Source of the DNA: Pseudooceanicola onchidii
Lineage (GTDB): Bacteria > Pseudomonadota > Alphaproteobacteria > Rhodobacterales > Rhodobacteraceae
DNA length: 64,000 nt
Assembly (NCBI RefSeq): GCF_004959925.1
Contig: NZ_SPUW01000001.1
Location: 1,364,001-1,428,000, forward strand
Direction of reading: 5' to 3'
The position numbers and the translations under genes are program-made. The notes under the pieces are model-generated. The model was given only the letters and a program-made list of their open reading frames with translations, did not search any database and had not been told where the DNA came from. This document shows, one piece after another, positions 7,392 through 35,884 of the stretch; position 1 is the first letter of the stretch, and every line of letters begins with the position of its first letter.

Positions 7392-7970
7392 TTACGGCGT
7401 AAGAACCAGCGACCCGTCGCCGATCTCAAGCTTCGAAAAGCCTTGCAGATAGCGCATCCCGAGAAGGGACTGGCGCATCTCTCCGCCGTTGACCATGGCG
7501 CGCACGCCTTCAGACCGGACAGGACCAAGCGCCACGCTGTCCAGCACCACCGGGGCGATCCCGACCTCTCCGTTCGCCGACAGGGCGCGGCTGGAATAGA
7601 CCAGCCCGGCCGGGTCGATCCCGAGGGTCTGTGCGTCTTTCTTGGTCAGCACGATGTCGCTGGCCCCGGTATCGACCATGAACCGCAAGGGTTCGCCGTT
7701 CACTTCGAGCGTGAGGTAATAGTGGCCGTCCGGTGCACGCGGGACCGAGATCTCTCCGCCCTGCAGAACCGCCTGCGACGGCAGCATGGTCTGGCGGATG
7801 TCACCCCAAAGACCCACCACGGCGATCACGCCGACGAAGATCAGGACCCAGGCGGCAAAGTTCTGCGCCAGACGGCCCCAGTGCTTGCGGCCCTGCGTGA
7901 AAATCCAGCCGCCGACCGCGATCAGCAGCAGGACGAGATAGGCGAAATGCATGGTCGAATTGGTATCCAT
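7392..7970 (-). CDS. Retropepsin-like aspartic protease, clan AA (TIGR02281 type)
   Basis: A 192-residue membrane-anchored protein. Two predicted N-terminal membrane helices (AYLVLLLIAVGGWIF and FAAWVLIFVGVIAVVGL) are followed by a single retropepsin-like domain. The catalytic motif is FMVDTGASDIVLT, and the flap and second-half segments (YYLTLEVNGEPL, SVALGPVRSEGVRAMVN) are recognisable. The C-terminal LLGMRYLQGFSKLEIGDGSLVL is typical of this alphaproteobacterial family. The substrate is unknown; the domain should face the periplasm. Convergent with holC, with only one base between the stop codons. Confidence 0.85.
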   Translation of the reverse strand: MDTNSTMHFAYLVLLLIAVGGWIFTQGRKHWGRLAQNFAAWVLIFVGVIAVVGLWGDIRQTMLPSQAVLQGGEISVPRAPDGHYYLTLEVNGEPLRFMVDTGASDIVLTKKDAQTLGIDPAGLVYSSRALSANGEVGIAPVVLDSVALGPVRSEGVRAMVNGGEMRQSLLGMRYLQGFSKLEIGDGSLVLTP

Positions 7971-8001
7971 GGACTGGATATAGGCGCCCTGACCCGATGC
8001 G

Positions 8002-8622
8002 TCACCCGGCGAAACCGAAATCCTTAAGACCGTCCAGAACGAACTGCACCGACAGCGCCGCCAGAAGCATCCCCATCACCCGCGTGACCACGTTGATGCC
8101 GGTGCGCCCCAGCAGCCGTTCCAGCCACGTCGCGGTCAGGAAGAATCCGAAGACCACCAGAAGCACAAGCGCCGCGATCCCGGCGACGGACAGCGCGCCA
8201 AGGGCCCCGGGCCGCTGACCGGCCAGCAGGATCACGGTGGCAATCGCCCCCGGCCCGGCAATCAGCGGCATGGCCAGCGGGAAGACCGACGGATCGGGTT
8301 GGTCCTGCGGGTTCTCGGACTGATCCGAGCGCCGCTTGGTGCGCCGTTCAAACAGCATCTCGAGCGCGGTCAGGAACAGAAGGACACCGCCCGCGATCCG
8401 GAAGGCGGGCATGGTGATGCCGACGAACCCCATCACCGCCTCGCCGAAGAAGGCGAAGAGCGTCAGCAGGCCAAGCGCGATCAGCGACGACCGGATGGCC
8501 AGCGCGCGGCGGCGTTCCTGGCTGTCGCCCTGGGTGAGCGCGGTAAAGACCGGCGTCAGGCCGATCGGATCGATGATCACGAAAAGCGTGACAAAGGCGG
8601 TGATGTAGAAGGCGCTGTCCAT
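8002..8622 (-). CDS. MarC-family integral membrane protein
   Basis: A 206-residue polytopic protein (MDSAFYITAFVTLFVIIDPIGLTPVF). The FVIIDPIGLTPVF helix and the PLAMPLIAGPGAI segment are the two repeated signature regions of the MarC/UPF0056 family. Six membrane helices can be counted. The family was once linked to antibiotic resistance but its transported substrate is not established. The ATG at 8620-8622 overlaps the stop codon of the upstream ABC-F gene (ATGA), so it is probably translated from the same message. Confidence 0.88.
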   Translation of the reverse strand: MDSAFYITAFVTLFVIIDPIGLTPVFTALTQGDSQERRRALAIRSSLIALGLLTLFAFFGEAVMGFVGITMPAFRIAGGVLLFLTALEMLFERRTKRRSDQSENPQDQPDPSVFPLAMPLIAGPGAIATVILLAGQRPGALGALSVAGIAALVLLVVFGFFLTATWLERLLGRTGINVVTRVMGMLLAALSVQFVLDGLKDFGFAG

Positions 8623-15234: not shown

Positions 15235-15262
15235 GAAAGTGGCGGAGAGACAGGGATTCGAA
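15235..15262. repeat. attL: copy of the tRNA-Ser 3' end
   Basis: 28 bp identical to 35790-35817: GAAAGTGGCGGAGAGACAGG followed by GATTCGAA. The match stops in the T-arm of the tRNA, so this is an attachment-site remnant and not a tRNA gene. It defines the left element boundary. Confidence 0.9.
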
Positions 15263-15339: not shown

Positions 15340-15362
15340 TGTGTAGCAAAATGTGGAGCAAA
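15340..15362. repeat. Left copy of the 23-bp arm-type repeat
   Basis: A 23-bp sequence repeated identically in the same orientation at 35696-35718. It is itself a pair of related units, TGTGTAGCAAAA and TGTGGAGCAAA. Being about 75 bp inside both att cores, it is a good candidate for the arm-type site of the tyrosine recombinase. Confidence 0.65.
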
Positions 15363-15410: not shown

Positions 15411-16742
15411 ATGGCGGGATTGCATAAGCGAAACGGCACTTGGCATCTCCGGATGCGGGTCCCGCGTAGATATCTCGATGTCGCCGGTCGCAGTGAGATT
15501 CACCGCAGTCTTCGGACGGACAGCGAGCGACGCGCGCGCGAGCTGCTGCCCGCCGCTGAAGCTCAGATCCTCAAGGACCTTGAGGCCATGCGGGCGCTCA
15601 CACTGGAAATGTCAGACTCCATAGATCAACTGGCCGCTGCCTCGCATATCGCTGCCAATGAAGGATTTCTATATCGCCCAGTCGCGGAACTCGTGACGGC
15701 ACCCCTGGATGAGTTGTTGGGTCGGTTCGCCGCCGTGGAAAGGCATGGAGGCGATCCAACGGTCGCGAAGGCCGTGCTTGGCGGCGTGGAGCAGACGGGC
15801 CTGCGACTATCCCAGTTCGCGGCTGCTGATGAGCAGCTTGCTGCATTCGACAATCGGTTCAAAAATCCCAACCAGATGCGGGTCTGGCGCAATGCGAAAA
15901 TCCGGGCTGCCAGCAACCTACGGGCGGCGTTGGACGGTGCCGACATCCTCGTTGAGGATATCGACCATGCGGTCGCGCTACGGCATCGAGCGTGGTGGAA
16001 GCGCAGGGTGGCTGCCGAAGGCCTTGCGATTGAGAGCGCAAACAAAGAGTTCGCCAACCTCGCAGGAATGCTTAGGCGTTACTACGAGAACATCGCGCGA
16101 CCGAACCCTCCCGAGCCGTATCGGAGGGTCAGTTTGCGTGATCGGCACAATAATGAAAACCGGAGGCTCGAAATCCCGACCGACTGGATCGTCGAGAAAT
16201 GGTTTGCACCCGGGGCGTTCGACAATCTCAATGCGGAGGCGCGTGACATCCTGCTGATCTCCATCGAGACGGGGTGTCGGCAATCAGAAATCCATGATCT
16301 TCCGCCAGAGGCGATCGTGCTGGATGCAGCTATTCCCCATATTCTCGTCGCGAATAACAACGGCGAGCTCCGACGCGAAATCAAGAACACCGCTTCAAAA
16401 CGAAAGGTGCCATTGGTGGGCGTCGCCTTGGCGGCGGCACGGCGAAACCCGGATGGGTTCCCGAGGTATCGCGGAAAAGGCGGATATTCCGGCAATGTGA
16501 ATGGCCGTCTCAGGACAAGTGGTCTCTTTCCTTCGCCAGAGCACACGATCGGAGGTCTGCGGCATTCCTGGGAGAGCAGGATGGAGGCGTTCCGGGTGAG
16601 CGAAACGGAGAAGGGCCACATGATGGGCCACAGCATCAAAAAGATCCGGGGGCGGCCGGTCTACGGTGACGATGTGACGCTCGAAAAGCGGCACGAGATT
16701 GCCCAGCAGCTGTCCTTGCCGGTGCCCGATCATCTCGCATGA
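15411..16742 (+). CDS. Tyrosine recombinase / integrase
   Basis: A 443-residue integrase. The N-terminus (HKRNGTWHLRMRVPRRYLD) is of the DUF6538 type often fused to phage-like integrases, followed by a core-binding region and the catalytic domain from about residue 255. Catalytic residues: Arg290 (ETGCRQSE), Lys325 (EIKNTAS), Arg384 (GGLRHSW), His407 (MMGHSIKK) and Tyr418 (RPVYGDD). The first His of the usual HxxR box is replaced by Gly381, a tolerated change in the family. It is next to attL and should catalyse integration into tRNA-Ser. Confidence 0.9.
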   Translation: MAGLHKRNGTWHLRMRVPRRYLDVAGRSEIHRSLRTDSERRARELLPAAEAQILKDLEAMRALTLEMSDSIDQLAAASHIAANEGFLYRPVAELVTAPLDELLGRFAAVERHGGDPTVAKAVLGGVEQTGLRLSQFAAADEQLAAFDNRFKNPNQMRVWRNAKIRAASNLRAALDGADILVEDIDHAVALRHRAWWKRRVAAEGLAIESANKEFANLAGMLRRYYENIARPNPPEPYRRVSLRDRHNNENRRLEIPTDWIVEKWFAPGAFDNLNAEARDILLISIETGCRQSEIHDLPPEAIVLDAAIPHILVANNNGELRREIKNTASKRKVPLVGVALAAARRNPDGFPRYRGKGGYSGNVNGRLRTSGLFPSPEHTIGGLRHSWESRMEAFRVSETEKGHMMGHSIKKIRGRPVYGDDVTLEKRHEIAQQLSLPVPDHLA

Positions 16743-19219: not shown

Positions 19220-20458
19220 TTATCCCCGTGTGCGCTGCCGCGGTGAGCGGCGCTTCACCGCGACCGGCCGCATGATCGGTTCGGGTTCCGGAGCATGGGG
19301 CAGATTGCAGTTCTCGGGATCTATCGTTTCGTCGTTCTCGAAACCTTCGGCGAAGGGACCGCGTCCGGCCATTGCGTCGCTGATAGCCTGGGCCCAGCCG
19401 CATCCAGCTCGAGTGCTCTCGACGGAGTGTGACTGTTCGACCGCGGCCCTTATTGCTTCATCAGTATCGGCTGAACGGATCCTGTCGGCATGAGCCGTGG
19501 CTTCCTGTCGGCGCTCAGCCTCCCGCTTGTTCGCGATATGCTGCGACTCTCCGGATCTCCGAGCTTTTTCCCGTTGCCTCGCGCGCTTCAGATCCCACGC
19601 CTGCCACAGAGCCTCATTCCTTGAGCGCACGGTCGCGCGGTCCCGTTGTCTGGCCCCCGCTGGTGCTGCTTTTGCCTGCCGCCGTTTTCTTTTGATCGCT
19701 GCCGTCTTCGGTCCCTCGTGCCTCTGGGGCTCAAGCCCTTCCGGAGCGTCGCCAGCCGCTGCTTGATCGGCGTAGGAACGCAGGTCGATACGAGCGGATG
19801 ATCCACAGCGTTTGAGCGCGGCGTTTGTTCGGGTTTCCCATTCTTGGCGCATGAGAAGGACGCAGGCGGCACCGGTGTCCCGTGCGTCGAGCACACGCGT
19901 TTTCTCTCCGAAAACGCCACTATCGCGCTCGACTTCCCGGGTCGTGAAGCGGATGTGCGCATGAAAGTTGATATTGCTCTTTGTTGGGTCTTTTAGAGCG
20001 GTAAAATAGTCCTGTTCGCCGACCTCCGTCCCACGGTTTTTCCAGAGCGCCTTCCCCCATTCTTCGTCGAAGAATCTGGGGGCGTGGGTCACATAATGGA
20101 CGGCAACACCGAACGAGTCTCGCAGCCAGCACGCAAACCCGTGAACCAGACGGATCTGCTCGTTGTGCGGCAGCTCAGCGGGCAGGGCCGGCCTCAGTTC
20201 CCTCGCGACACGCGCGTTGCTTCGCACCTCGGATTTCTCGGCGGCGTTCCAAAGTTCCTCGGCAGAGGATTTCCAGCCCACGAGGCCCTCGTGCAGGAGA
20301 CCCGGAACATTGCGATAGTTGAAAATCAGACCAGTCCGATGATCGGTCATCCGGCTCCGAGAGGCGTAAGCGGCCGCGGCGACGGATGACCGTCCGTCCG
20401 ATCGGGAAATGACCAGGAGTGGGCAATGGCTGGCTGGATGTGGGCGCAAGTGTTTCAT
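19220..20458 (-). CDS. MobA/MobL-family relaxase (MobQ class)
   Basis: A 412-residue relaxase. N-terminal motif DGRSSVAAAAYASRSRM and ARELRPALPAELP match MobA/MobL. The metal-binding motif NFHAHIRFTTR supplies His166 and His168, with an upstream His in VHYVTHAP. The C-terminal half is strongly basic and helical (IKRKRRQAKAAPAG). The relaxase nicks oriT, stays bound to the 5' end and pilots the strand into a conjugation channel supplied by another element. oriT lies about 60 bases upstream of its start and mobC-like is divergent. Confidence 0.88.
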   Translation of the reverse strand: MKHLRPHPASHCPLLVISRSDGRSSVAAAAYASRSRMTDHRTGLIFNYRNVPGLLHEGLVGWKSSAEELWNAAEKSEVRSNARVARELRPALPAELPHNEQIRLVHGFACWLRDSFGVAVHYVTHAPRFFDEEWGKALWKNRGTEVGEQDYFTALKDPTKSNINFHAHIRFTTREVERDSGVFGEKTRVLDARDTGAACVLLMRQEWETRTNAALKRCGSSARIDLRSYADQAAAGDAPEGLEPQRHEGPKTAAIKRKRRQAKAAPAGARQRDRATVRSRNEALWQAWDLKRARQREKARRSGESQHIANKREAERRQEATAHADRIRSADTDEAIRAAVEQSHSVESTRAGCGWAQAISDAMAGRGPFAEGFENDETIDPENCNLPHAPEPEPIMRPVAVKRRSPRQRTRG

Positions 20459-20956: not shown

Positions 20957-21153
20957 CCGGCATCGACCGATAGTCGCGATCAGCAGCTACCGCATGATTC
21001 CATGAAGAACTGAATCGGAGCGGTTGTGACCTGAGAGATTGGCAATCTGACTGCCGTCTCCGAAGGTTTTTCCTTGGGGACCTGCGATCTCCCACCGGGG
21101 CGATATCCGCATCTTCAACACAAGGATCACGAAGTTCGGGCTGGAGATCGCGG

Positions 21154-21640
21154 TCTCCTCTACCGCCTTCGCGGCGGCTAACTGGTGGGACCCGGCGCAC
21201 TCTCGTATCAAGAGCGTTGTTTCTCAGCCGCCTACGCGGCGGCTCACACCGGGTCCCTGGTAAGGAGATAGGGTGGCGCCGACTCAGACGGAAACACCTT
21301 TTTCTCCTCTACCGCCTTCGCGGCGGCTAACTGGTGGGACCCGGCGCACTCTTGTATCAAGAGCGTCTTTCTCCGCCGCCTACGCGGCGGCTCACACCGG
21401 GTCCTTGGTAAGGAGATAGGGTGGCGCCGGTTCAGCCGGAAACACCTTTTTCTCCTCTGCCGCCTATGCGGCGGCTAACTGGTGGGACCCGGCGCACTCT
21501 TGTATCAAGAGCGTCTTTCTCCGCCGCCTACGCGGCGGCTCACACCGGGTCCTTGGCAAGGAGATAGGGTGGCGCCGTTTCAGACGGAAACACCTTTTTC
21601 TCCTCTACCGCCTTCGCGGCGGCTAACCAATGGGACCCGG
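21154..21640 (+). repeat. Tandem array of 148-149-bp units with conserved multi-hairpin RNA structure
   Basis: Three full units (21154-21302, 21303-21450, 21451-21598) and a truncated fourth (21599-21640). In unit 2: TCTCCT (21303) pairs with AGGAGA (21411); CCGCC-TTCGC-GGCGG hairpin (21312-21326); GGACCCGG (21337) pairs with CCGGGTCC (21397), enclosing CTCTTG-TAT-CAAGAG (21349-21363) and CCGCCGC-CTAC-GCGGCGG (21373-21390); then GGTG-GCG-CCGG-TTCAG-CCGG-AAA-CACC (21420-21446) followed by five T. The last stem is CCGG/CCGG in unit 2 and CCGT/ACGG in unit 3, a compensatory change. No protein-coding frame is plausible. It lies between mobC-like and the copper genes. Confidence 0.85.
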
Positions 21641-21736
21641 TGATTTCGTCAGTCCTCATGCGGGCTTCATGACTTTTTCGGGAACATCCAGCCACTGGAG
21701 GGTTGTTGTTCTCCTGAACACTTCAGGAGAACCCCG

Positions 21737-22561
21737 ATGGCCTACACCCGTTTTTTCCTCATGATCGCGACCTCGACCCTGCTGATGCTCGGTCTGATGT
21801 ATCTGAACACCTATCTCGTCAGCCATGTCTTCTGGTCGGAAACGCGCGCCTACATGGCGCTGGTCATGGGGGCCGTTATGGCTTTCGTGATGCTGGCTTT
21901 CATGCTGGGCATGTATAAGAACCGCACCGCCAATATCGCCATTTTCGCCGGGTCCGTCGTCGTATTCGCCGGGGCGCTCTGGCTGGTGCGCAGCCAGGCG
22001 ACTGTGCAGGACCGGTCCTACATGAGCGCGATGATCCCGCACCATTCGATCGCCATCATGACCTCTTCACGGGCCAATCTGACCGACCCGCGCGTGCGCG
22101 AGCTGGCGGATGGGATCATCTACGCTCAGGACAAGGAGATCGCCGAGATGCGCTACTTGCTCGCCGACATCGCGGCGAATGGCGAGGCACAGCCGGGGCC
22201 TGCCGCCGCCGCGCCGAAGCTGAAGGATGCTGCCGAGGCGCTGTCGACCGAGGTCGTCAAGACCGTCGATCCGGAGTTCCTGACGGAGGACGACATCGCG
22301 AAGGTCTTCCCCGATGGTGCCGACTGCCGCTTCACCTATACCGAGACCAGCCCGCCGGTGCTTGTGACGGGCGACGACAGCGCGTTGATACGGATCAGCG
22401 GCGACCTTGTCCGGCTTGAGGCCGCCGGCGACGGCTTTGCCGCCGACCCGCTGACGGCAAAGATCAACCAAACGGACGACGGCGACCTGCACGACCTGAT
22501 CGTGACCGCCGGGCCCGACTACACCGCCGGGTTCCGCGGCCAGTTCACCTGCGCCAACTGA
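21737..22561 (+). CDS. DUF305 membrane protein with C-terminal extracytoplasmic domain
   Basis: A 274-residue protein. Three N-terminal membrane helices (FLMIATSTLLMLGLMYL, MALVMGAVMAFVMLAFML, IAIFAGSVVVFAGALWL) are followed by a DUF305 region: DRSYMSAMIPHHSIAIMTSSRA...DKEIAEMRYLLADI. The MIPHH and Met-containing helices of DUF305 bind copper in CopM-like proteins. A further domain of about 100 residues with CRFTYTETSPP...FRGQFTCAN follows. It opens the plus-strand copper operon; glutaredoxin-MauE follows after 10 nt. Confidence 0.8.
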   Translation: MAYTRFFLMIATSTLLMLGLMYLNTYLVSHVFWSETRAYMALVMGAVMAFVMLAFMLGMYKNRTANIAIFAGSVVVFAGALWLVRSQATVQDRSYMSAMIPHHSIAIMTSSRANLTDPRVRELADGIIYAQDKEIAEMRYLLADIAANGEAQPGPAAAAPKLKDAAEALSTEVVKTVDPEFLTEDDIAKVFPDGADCRFTYTETSPPVLVTGDDSALIRISGDLVRLEAAGDGFAADPLTAKINQTDDGDLHDLIVTAGPDYTAGFRGQFTCAN

Positions 22562-35789: not shown

Positions 35790-35817
35790 GAAAGTGGCGG
35801 AGAGACAGGGATTCGAA
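35790..35817. repeat. attR: att core within tRNA-Ser
   Basis: 28 bp identical to 15235-15262, covering five bases beyond the tRNA, the CCA end, the acceptor stem and most of the T-arm. The tRNA gene stays intact because the element restored its 3' end. Confidence 0.9.
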
Positions 35818-35884
35818 CCCTGGGTGGGCTTGCACCCACAACGGTTTTCGAGACCGCCCCGTTCGACCACTCCGGCACCTCTCC
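35795..35884 (-). tRNA. tRNA-Ser (anticodon CGA)
   Basis: A 90-nt gene read on the minus strand: acceptor GGAGAGG pairing with CCTCTCC-type 3' strand CTCTCC, D-arm GCCGGAGTGGTCGAACGGG, anticodon stem GCGGT/ACCGT with loop CTCGAAA (anticodon CGA, reads UCG), a long class II variable arm (TGTGGGTGCAAGCCCACC), T-arm with GGTTCGAATCC and an encoded CCA. It is the integration target of the element. Confidence 0.95.

Follow-up and report, generated by a model that had tools for sequence, protein, structure and literature searches.

Tandem hairpins resembling type I-F CRISPR repeats in a probable integrative mobilizable element of Pseudooceanicola onchidii

Introduction

RNA anti-CRISPRs (Racrs) are described as solitary repeat units (SRUs; Camara-Wilpert 2023, PMC10651486). 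In that account RacrIF1 is cut by Cas6f and forms an aberrant Cas6f–Cas7f complex in a dose-dependent manner, a non-targeting crRNA also inhibits, and functions of SRUs other than inhibition are allowed for. About 90% of the SRU-bearing prophages and viruses infect CRISPR-Cas hosts, with 83% of these SRUs matching the subtype, and SRUs number 2,103 in viruses against 90 in plasmids (PMC10651486). The program SRUFinder drops clustered repeats (<100 bp) and matches of less than 90% identity to its 17,823 repeats, so that arrays of the kind described here should, by the filters as given there, fall outside its catalogue. Viral mini-CRISPR arrays, too, place repeats on mobile elements that lack cas genes, and most of their spacers target related viruses (PMC11656645). 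Among the matches listed from the open-licence PubMed Central literature, none concerned tandem repeat-mimic arrays on plasmids or integrative elements.

Here we describe a tandem array in the marine bacterium Pseudooceanicola onchidii whose hairpins resemble the type I-F repeat. It has in common with the Racrs of PMC10651486, RacrIF1 among them, a repeat mimic hairpin of type I-F that is intergenic, lacks cas genes and is carried on a mobile element. Unlike the Racrs as described there, the array is not solitary: seven mimics, of two kinds per unit, lie inside what is probably a larger structured RNA, and their spacing of 64 and 84 bp makes them clustered within 100 bp. Identity to the six genuine I-F repeats compared is at most 79%, against the 90% of the Racr finder, and the host family is almost devoid of type I-F, so that the subtype is not matched as in the published pattern. 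The array likewise differs from the viral mini-arrays of PMC11656645, since its gaps recur nearly unchanged and matched nothing in the phage collection. Set against a type I-F CRISPR array, it has neither the 60-bp period nor differing spacers, nor a Cas1 or Csy3 match in the genome.

Results

A tandem array in a mobilizable element

The window—the whole stretch of DNA analysed, 64,000 nucleotides in length—was searched with TRF, which reports a tandem array at 21154–21640 with a period of 148, 3.3 copies, 94% matches and a score of 860. The initial annotation, made from the sequence of the window, had described units of about 148 bp, three complete and a fourth truncated, with which TRF and the unit boundaries agree; its GGACCCGG/CCGGGTCC stem, its hairpins and its short T run can all be found in the sequence. 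The units are:

21154–21302, minus strand: array unit 1, 149 bp
21303–21450, minus strand: array unit 2, 148 bp; minus-strand fold −75.4 kcal/mol, z −5.8
21451–21598, minus strand: array unit 3, 148 bp
21599–21640, minus strand: partial fourth unit, 42 bp, comprising hairpin B plus a single arm of the enclosing stem

The array occupies a single site in its own genome and is present in three of the 22 genomes of the genus, this one counted. One relative, assigned to Primorskyibacter flagellatus CGMCC 1.12664, has two full units and a partial one, and the other, assigned to Pseudooceanicola atlanticus 22II-s11g, has contig ends that fall inside the array. Compared by blastn, it matched one record in the plasmid collection, a homologous Sulfitobacter array, and no record in the phage collection.

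The following features surround the array:

15244–15262, plus strand: attL-like copy of the tRNA-Ser 3′ end, probable left end; homology to two relatives begins approximately here
15411–16742, plus strand: integrase-like gene (DUF6538), taken as an integrase from its position and family
19220–20458, minus strand: MobA/MobL (MobQ-like) relaxase gene, Pfam PF03389, 8.8e-34
35795–35884, minus strand: tRNA-Ser(CGA) gene, probable integration site and right end

The relaxase scores 142.7 bits against NCBIfam MobQ, under the cut-off of 200. DNA from about 15.24 kb onward is common to the window and both array-bearing relatives. The copy of the tRNA-Ser 3′ end at 15244, together with the tRNA gene at 35795–35884, suggests an integrative mobilizable element, and 15244–35884 is probably such an element, about 20.6 kb long and located at tRNA-Ser. 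The relaxase, the integrase-like gene and the tRNA-Ser ends accord with the placement of the array in a mobilizable element by the initial annotation; for the copper genes that it reported alongside, no link beyond adjacency was found. A second stretch shared between the element ends, TGTAGCAAAATGTGGAGCAAA, lies at 15342 and 35698. Just upstream of an ORF at 21737 is a perfect 25-bp palindrome, GTTCTCCTGAACACTTCAGGAGAAC (21708–21732), a possible operator or RNA hairpin, whose letters are not fully conserved in genome G005.

Strand, folding and covariation

Unit 2 folds to −75.4 kcal/mol (z −5.8) on the minus strand versus −70.2 kcal/mol (z −3.5) on the plus strand, and all three units fold better on the minus strand, with z values of −6.1 to −6.2 versus −2.7 to −3.9 (60 shuffles for each unit). 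Among 21 folded stretches from ten loci, which are not independent of one another, the orientation of the I-F repeat is lower in energy in 20 (the exception is from genome G204) and better in z in 19. Substitutions point the same way: of the 322 cells counted over seven units in the structure of the minus strand, G.U accounts for 28 and A.C for a single one, and four one-sided changes retain pairing on the minus strand only. The array RNA is likely read from the minus strand, and the array is supported as a tandem, structured and probably RNA-level element within a mobilizable element. Pairing holds in 97.2% of the 319 cells of the structure counted over the seven units; five of the seven lack pair 62-77 because hairpin A has a second register. 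Apart from the repeat-like hairpins listed below, unit 2 contains:

21337–21346, minus strand: 3′ arm of the stem enclosing hairpin A, from the fold; unbroken in seven units
21395–21404, minus strand: 5′ arm of the stem enclosing hairpin A, from the fold and the seven-unit pairing count
21420–21446, minus strand: linker hairpin separating B of one unit from A of the following unit, from the fold and the seven-unit count

Complementarity of the flanks forming the enclosing stem has p 0.005 in unit 1. As a general rule the enclosing stem was rejected, with p≤0.02 in only 4 of 14 mimic loci and in none of five genuine-array controls.

A change from G-C to T-A between units 2 and 3 had been read by the initial annotation as selection on RNA structure. 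The change exists and pairing is kept, but it is the one compensatory pair in seven units of three genomes, and two of these units break it (U.U). The RNAalifold covariation term is slightly unfavourable (+0.64), and the observed covariation score was reached by 204 of 500 shuffles; with a single compensatory pair, within-genus covariation is therefore without statistical support.

The same annotation had read the array from the plus strand, as tandem small RNAs with one terminated transcript per unit. Such a tandem layout is seen in the CcsR sRNAs of Rhodobacter, which carry the motif CCUCCUCCC. A T run does follow each unit on the plus strand, which folds well too, and the terminator scan near the array called six sites versus a shuffle mean of 1.0, four of them on the plus strand and two of these inside units 2 and 3; on the minus strand there is a weak site at 20970–20955. 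The scan made no call, however, at the GGTG..CACC hairpin and T run that had been taken for the terminator. Against plus-strand transcripts stand the better minus-strand folding of all three units and the excess of G.U over A.C cells, the absence of the CcsR motif from both strands of the array, and a loop and tail of I-F type that exist on the minus strand only. Units 2 and 3 do have terminator-like calls on the plus strand, but the reading built on them fits less well and we consider it highly improbable. Elsewhere, at L025:172–484, tandem repeats bearing CCTCCTCCC presumably resemble the CcsR (cuckoo) sRNA arrays of Rhodobacter.

Resemblance to type I-F repeats

Read on the minus strand, each full unit has two hairpins, and the partial unit one, that resemble the CRISPR repeat of type I-F (CCGCC-GNNNA-GGCGG), seven in all:

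21220–21247, minus strand: hairpin A of unit 1; handle-like tail CTGAGAAA; CRISPR-DR4 25.1 bits, E 0.0092; 22/28 to four genuine I-F repeats
21368–21395, minus strand: hairpin A of unit 2; tail CGGAGAAA; CRISPR-DR4 18.6 bits, E 0.97; 21/28 to the four genuine repeats matched by hairpin A of unit 1
21516–21543, minus strand: hairpin A of unit 3; tail CGGAGAAA; CRISPR-DR4 18.6 bits, E 0.97; 21/28 to the same four repeats
21155–21182, minus strand: hairpin B of unit 1; hairpin as in A, tail altered to TAGAGGAG; 21/28 to the G524 repeat, 17–19 to five others
21304–21331, minus strand: hairpin B of unit 2; tail TAGAGGAG; repeat scores as in unit 1
21452–21479, minus strand: hairpin B of unit 3; tail CAGAGGAG; CRISPR-DR4 21.6 bits, E 0.12
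21600–21627, minus strand: hairpin B of the partial unit; tail TAGAGGAG; repeat scores as in unit 1

When the minus strand of the array was searched against Rfam, CRISPR-DR4 (RF01317, the type I-F repeat) came out first among 4227 families. It matches four of the seven hairpins within E 1 (E values are for a 1.5-kb search) at 18.6–25.1 bits, all below the gathering score of 35 bits, and the other three are unlisted. The hairpins share with CRISPR-DR4 the 28-nt layout, the 5-bp stem, the 5-nt loop and the tail; unlike that family, these copies lie below gathering and their spacing is not array-like. The gathering score is reached in three loci, L013, L033 and L069: the homologous array on the Sulfitobacter plasmid (39.4 bits) and genome G156 (35.1 bits) exceed it, and a Roseovarius plasmid (L069, 35.0 bits) equals it. 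Among genuine repeats, those of Pararhizobium gei and Neokomagataea gave no CRISPR-DR4 match at E≤1 and that of G408 scored 26.6 bits; as genuine alphaproteobacterial repeats also score low, a sub-threshold score is weak evidence against mimicry.

Six genuine I-F repeats were compared directly: those of Salinimonas (23 copies), P. gei (26), Neokomagataea (10), G524 (12) and G408 (2), and that of viral contig L058, whose 11 repeats are not all alike and were represented by the most frequent kind; L064 and L065 were left out. Every 28-mer on both strands of the window was ranked, with ties counted separately. All seven array hairpins rank strictly top against the G524 repeat (21–22/28) and against the Salinimonas repeat (19–22/28), the best score elsewhere being 18 in each case; one of these two repeats is alphaproteobacterial. 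Four hairpins score strictly above the rest of the window against the P. gei repeat, with three tying with the best elsewhere; four of seven do so against the G408 repeat, and three of seven, with one tie, against each of the Neokomagataea and L058 repeats. Most of this signal is carried by the A hairpins and by hairpin B of unit 3. The I-F arrays of P. gei p3 and Neokomagataea have the stem CCGCC/GGCGG, the GNNNA loop and the tail start CTGAGA in common with the array.

The loop is GNNNA in all seven hairpins on the minus strand versus none on the plus strand, and in 4 of the 50 other all-GC 5-bp/5-nt hairpins of the window, both strands taken together. A tail match of at least 6/8, with reference tails from genuine repeats only, is found in 3/7 array hairpins versus 0/50 of the others. 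The earlier statement that the array belongs to no described family is superseded by the CRISPR-DR4 best match, sub-gathering as it is, and by the top scores against two I-F repeats: the minus strand very probably mimics the type I-F repeat.

GC-rich palindromes in tandem near a relaxase gene could also be a repeat acting at the DNA level, either REP/BIME-like or part of the transfer or integration apparatus. The strand asymmetry of the helices (28 G.U versus 1 A.C), the GNNNA loop in 7/7 hairpins and the conserved tail of hairpin A argue against this, as do the single, non-dispersed genome site and the probable element ends at 15.24 and 35.8 kb, away from the array; we regard it as very unlikely.

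Related loci in the family and on plasmids

A search pattern built on the arrays of the window and of Sulfitobacter, with up to two mismatches, matched eight of 394 family genomes, the window's own genome and G408 among them, and none in the reversed control. Mimic stretches of G095, G336, G310, G155 and G204 fold well (z −3.8 to −6.4), while that of G156 (period 88) folds poorly (z −1.4); G095 has three units with a period of 157. Twelve weak family hits beyond the own genome were set aside as chance or coding hairpins by appearance, and only G336 (L014) was retained. A gapped motif matched four loci in the genome collection, two being known relatives and two (L052 and L055) looking like chance, and gave no matches in viral contigs.

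A search of plasmids with a 33-nt probe gave 23 records at E≤10; several are from gammaproteobacteria, and at least that of Salinimonas is a genuine array. Three Rhodobacterales plasmids were thereby added to that of Sulfitobacter: Roseovarius indicus pRIdsm_01 and plasmids of Thioclava nitratireducens and T. electrotropha. The T. nitratireducens plasmid has four copies of a 180-nt repeat spaced 223–231 bp. The plain repeat pattern matched thirteen viral stretches; L058, L064 and L065 show 60-bp spacing, and L057 and L059 have several further repeats and look like arrays. Viral contig L063 (11652–11723; the same in L067) has a pair of I-F-like repeats 50 bp apart; judged by eye, the pair is preceded by an A+T stretch that looks like a promoter and followed by a hairpin with a T run.

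Several loci share the two-hairpin design, in which A has a tail near CTKAGAAR and B a changed one. The changed-tail second hairpin occurs in seven further loci (Sulfitobacter, G095, G336, G310, the two Thioclava plasmids and Roseovarius), and pairs with two intact or near-intact tails occur in viral L063 (gap 22) and G156 (gap 60). The GNNNA loop is present in 61 of 63 stem-filtered hairpins from 13 loci, the other two looking like chance hairpins nearby. The sequence of the window array thus establishes the mimics, their orientation and their tandem amplification, and the two-hairpin design recurs in other loci on plasmids or mobile DNA.

Between A and B the gap is 36–37 nt in the window and G095, 19–22 in Thioclava and G310, 46–51 in Sulfitobacter and G336, and 82–85 in Roseovarius; the spacing in I-F arrays is 32. 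In the window units it folds into an 8-bp hairpin with z −1.3 to −1.8 and p 0.05–0.12 (mononucleotide shuffles). Folding is clearer in G095, G336 and G310, weak or absent in Thioclava and absent in Sulfitobacter, and so gap folding fails as a general rule.

Genome G408 contains a decayed genuine I-F locus (L044:6263–7761) with Cas8f (1.8e-106), a truncated Csy2 54% identical to that of P. gei, and two repeats at 60 bp, whose hairpin is the same as that of the array. This genome also has an array of I-E-like repeats with a 61-bp period (L085). A decayed locus of this kind in the family, together with repeat-like hairpins without cas genes in the window, would fit a relict I-F array that lost its cas genes and expanded by recombination between repeats. 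The hairpin spacing in the window, however, alternates between 64 and 84 bp rather than the I-F period of about 60 bp, and the gaps, of 36–37 and 56 nt, are almost identical from one unit to another, as differing spacers would not be. The blastn comparisons gave no phage record and, from plasmids, only the homologous array of Sulfitobacter, and the A-to-B gaps of the two-hairpin pairs elsewhere depart from 32 nt. We therefore judge a relict array quite unlikely.

In G095 and in both modules of Roseovarius, reading in the I-F orientation, strong terminator-like hairpins lie downstream of the mimics, although the counts of such sites are not above those of shuffles (5 versus 3.2 and 1 versus 1.2, respectively). 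Thioclava has one terminator-like site on the other strand (shuffles 1.5) and none in the I-F orientation. Promoter-like sites were not found by scanning the window array, L069 and L071, and those of G095 are on the opposite strand only. The mimic module of the Roseovarius plasmid is duplicated (L069:5830–6337 and 7782–8141), with a terminator-like hairpin after each copy, and ungapped pieces of the copies are 70–84% identical.

Beside the Thioclava I-F mimics, at L071:5600–5720, one hairpin aligns at 22/29 (with one inserted base) to the I-E repeat of E. coli K-12, and a second reads CCCCGC-ATGT-GCGGGG. Two I-E-like hairpins also lie in the intergenic stretch of the I-F mimic in G204 (L045:3434–3572), matching the K-12 repeat ungapped at 19 and 21 of 29 on opposite strands. 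A search of the plasmid collection gave no confirmation of the I-E resemblance, which we treat as a lead.

Distribution of type I-F systems

Pfam Csy4 (PF09618) matched neither the own genome (0/1) nor any of 394 family genomes, but was discarded as a negative test because it fails on the Cas6f proteins of the two genuine systems from alphaproteobacteria, one at 15.6 bits against a cut-off of 25 and the other unlisted. As that model is blind to alphaproteobacterial Cas6f, Csy3 was used as the host test. No Csy3 match turned up in nine mimic-bearing genomes, in G408 or in 388 sampled family genomes, and two of 376 genomes of the class had one. The model detects a divergent alphaproteobacterial I-F system at 214.8 bits, so type I-F seems to be really rare in this family. 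Of the nine with mimics, G204 alone has a Cas1 match, and G408 has one as well; the own genome has no match to Cas1, Csy3 or Csy4, the last with a model that misses alphaproteobacterial Cas6f. The CRISPR of G204 itself has a 66-bp period, lies beside the Cas1 match and a 1078-aa ORF (perhaps type II), and is not I-F-like.

Plasmid P. gei p3 and a Neokomagataea plasmid (L050, L051) carry genuine 60-bp I-F arrays of 26 and 10 repeats, respectively, with cas genes. An element moving between families could, on this comparison, meet type I-F. Probable alphaproteobacterial Cas6f genes lie at L050:10909–11559 and L051:10906–11556, where the products are annotated as hypothetical, fall under the Pfam Csy4 cut-off and have type IV Cas6 as their only PADLOC match.

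Mimic-bearing genomes without I-F, a divergent I-F Cas6f that also resembles type IV Cas6, and the non-inhibitory functions that the Racr paper allows (PMC10651486) are points in favour of a mimic serving some other purpose—crRNA-like regulation through a host Cascade, mimicry for a Cas6 of another subtype, or help in integration or maintenance. Eight of the nine mimic-bearing genomes are without a Cas1 match, however, and the gaps have no outside match in the phage and plasmid collections; we consider another purpose unlikely.

Discussion

Among the explanations considered, we lean towards the array being a tandemly amplified RNA anti-CRISPR of the Racr type, perhaps one that gives decoy crRNAs. 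The array would be transcribed from the minus strand as a structured RNA with two I-F repeat mimics per unit, hairpin A with a tail like the crRNA handle and hairpin B with the same stem-loop and a changed tail. In an I-F host, Cas6f would bind and cut the array hairpins, and cutting at A and B would release a crRNA-like piece made up of handle, folded gap and hairpin. Such products may sequester Cas6f, Cas7f or the entire Cascade at the expense of host crRNAs. The mobilizable element would thereby gain entry to I-F hosts or persist there, and the copy number of the units would raise the decoy dose. Several observations count against a decoy, among them the failure to find Csy3 in mimic-bearing or family genomes, the identity of at most 79% to the repeats compared and the negative promoter scan of the window array; in addition, the tail of hairpin A in units 2 and 3 is CGGAGAAA and hairpin B has lost its tail, and hairpin A of the T. 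electrotropha plasmid overlaps an annotated ScpB gene.

More tentatively, these loci may represent a new architecture of Rhodobacterales plasmids and integrative elements, in which A and B with a folded gap would yield a handle-complete decoy crRNA released by Cas6f, with tandem control of dose; the Thioclava plasmid and G204, with their I-E-like hairpins, might then carry a cassette directed at several subtypes.

If a decoy function is correct, plasmid-like elements would make decoys of high dose that, unlike RacrIF1, include a handle. As the published search excludes clustered and diverged mimics, a whole class of them may be uncounted. The puzzle for the biology of the group is that mimics of the I-F repeat are carried by a bacterial family almost without type I-F.
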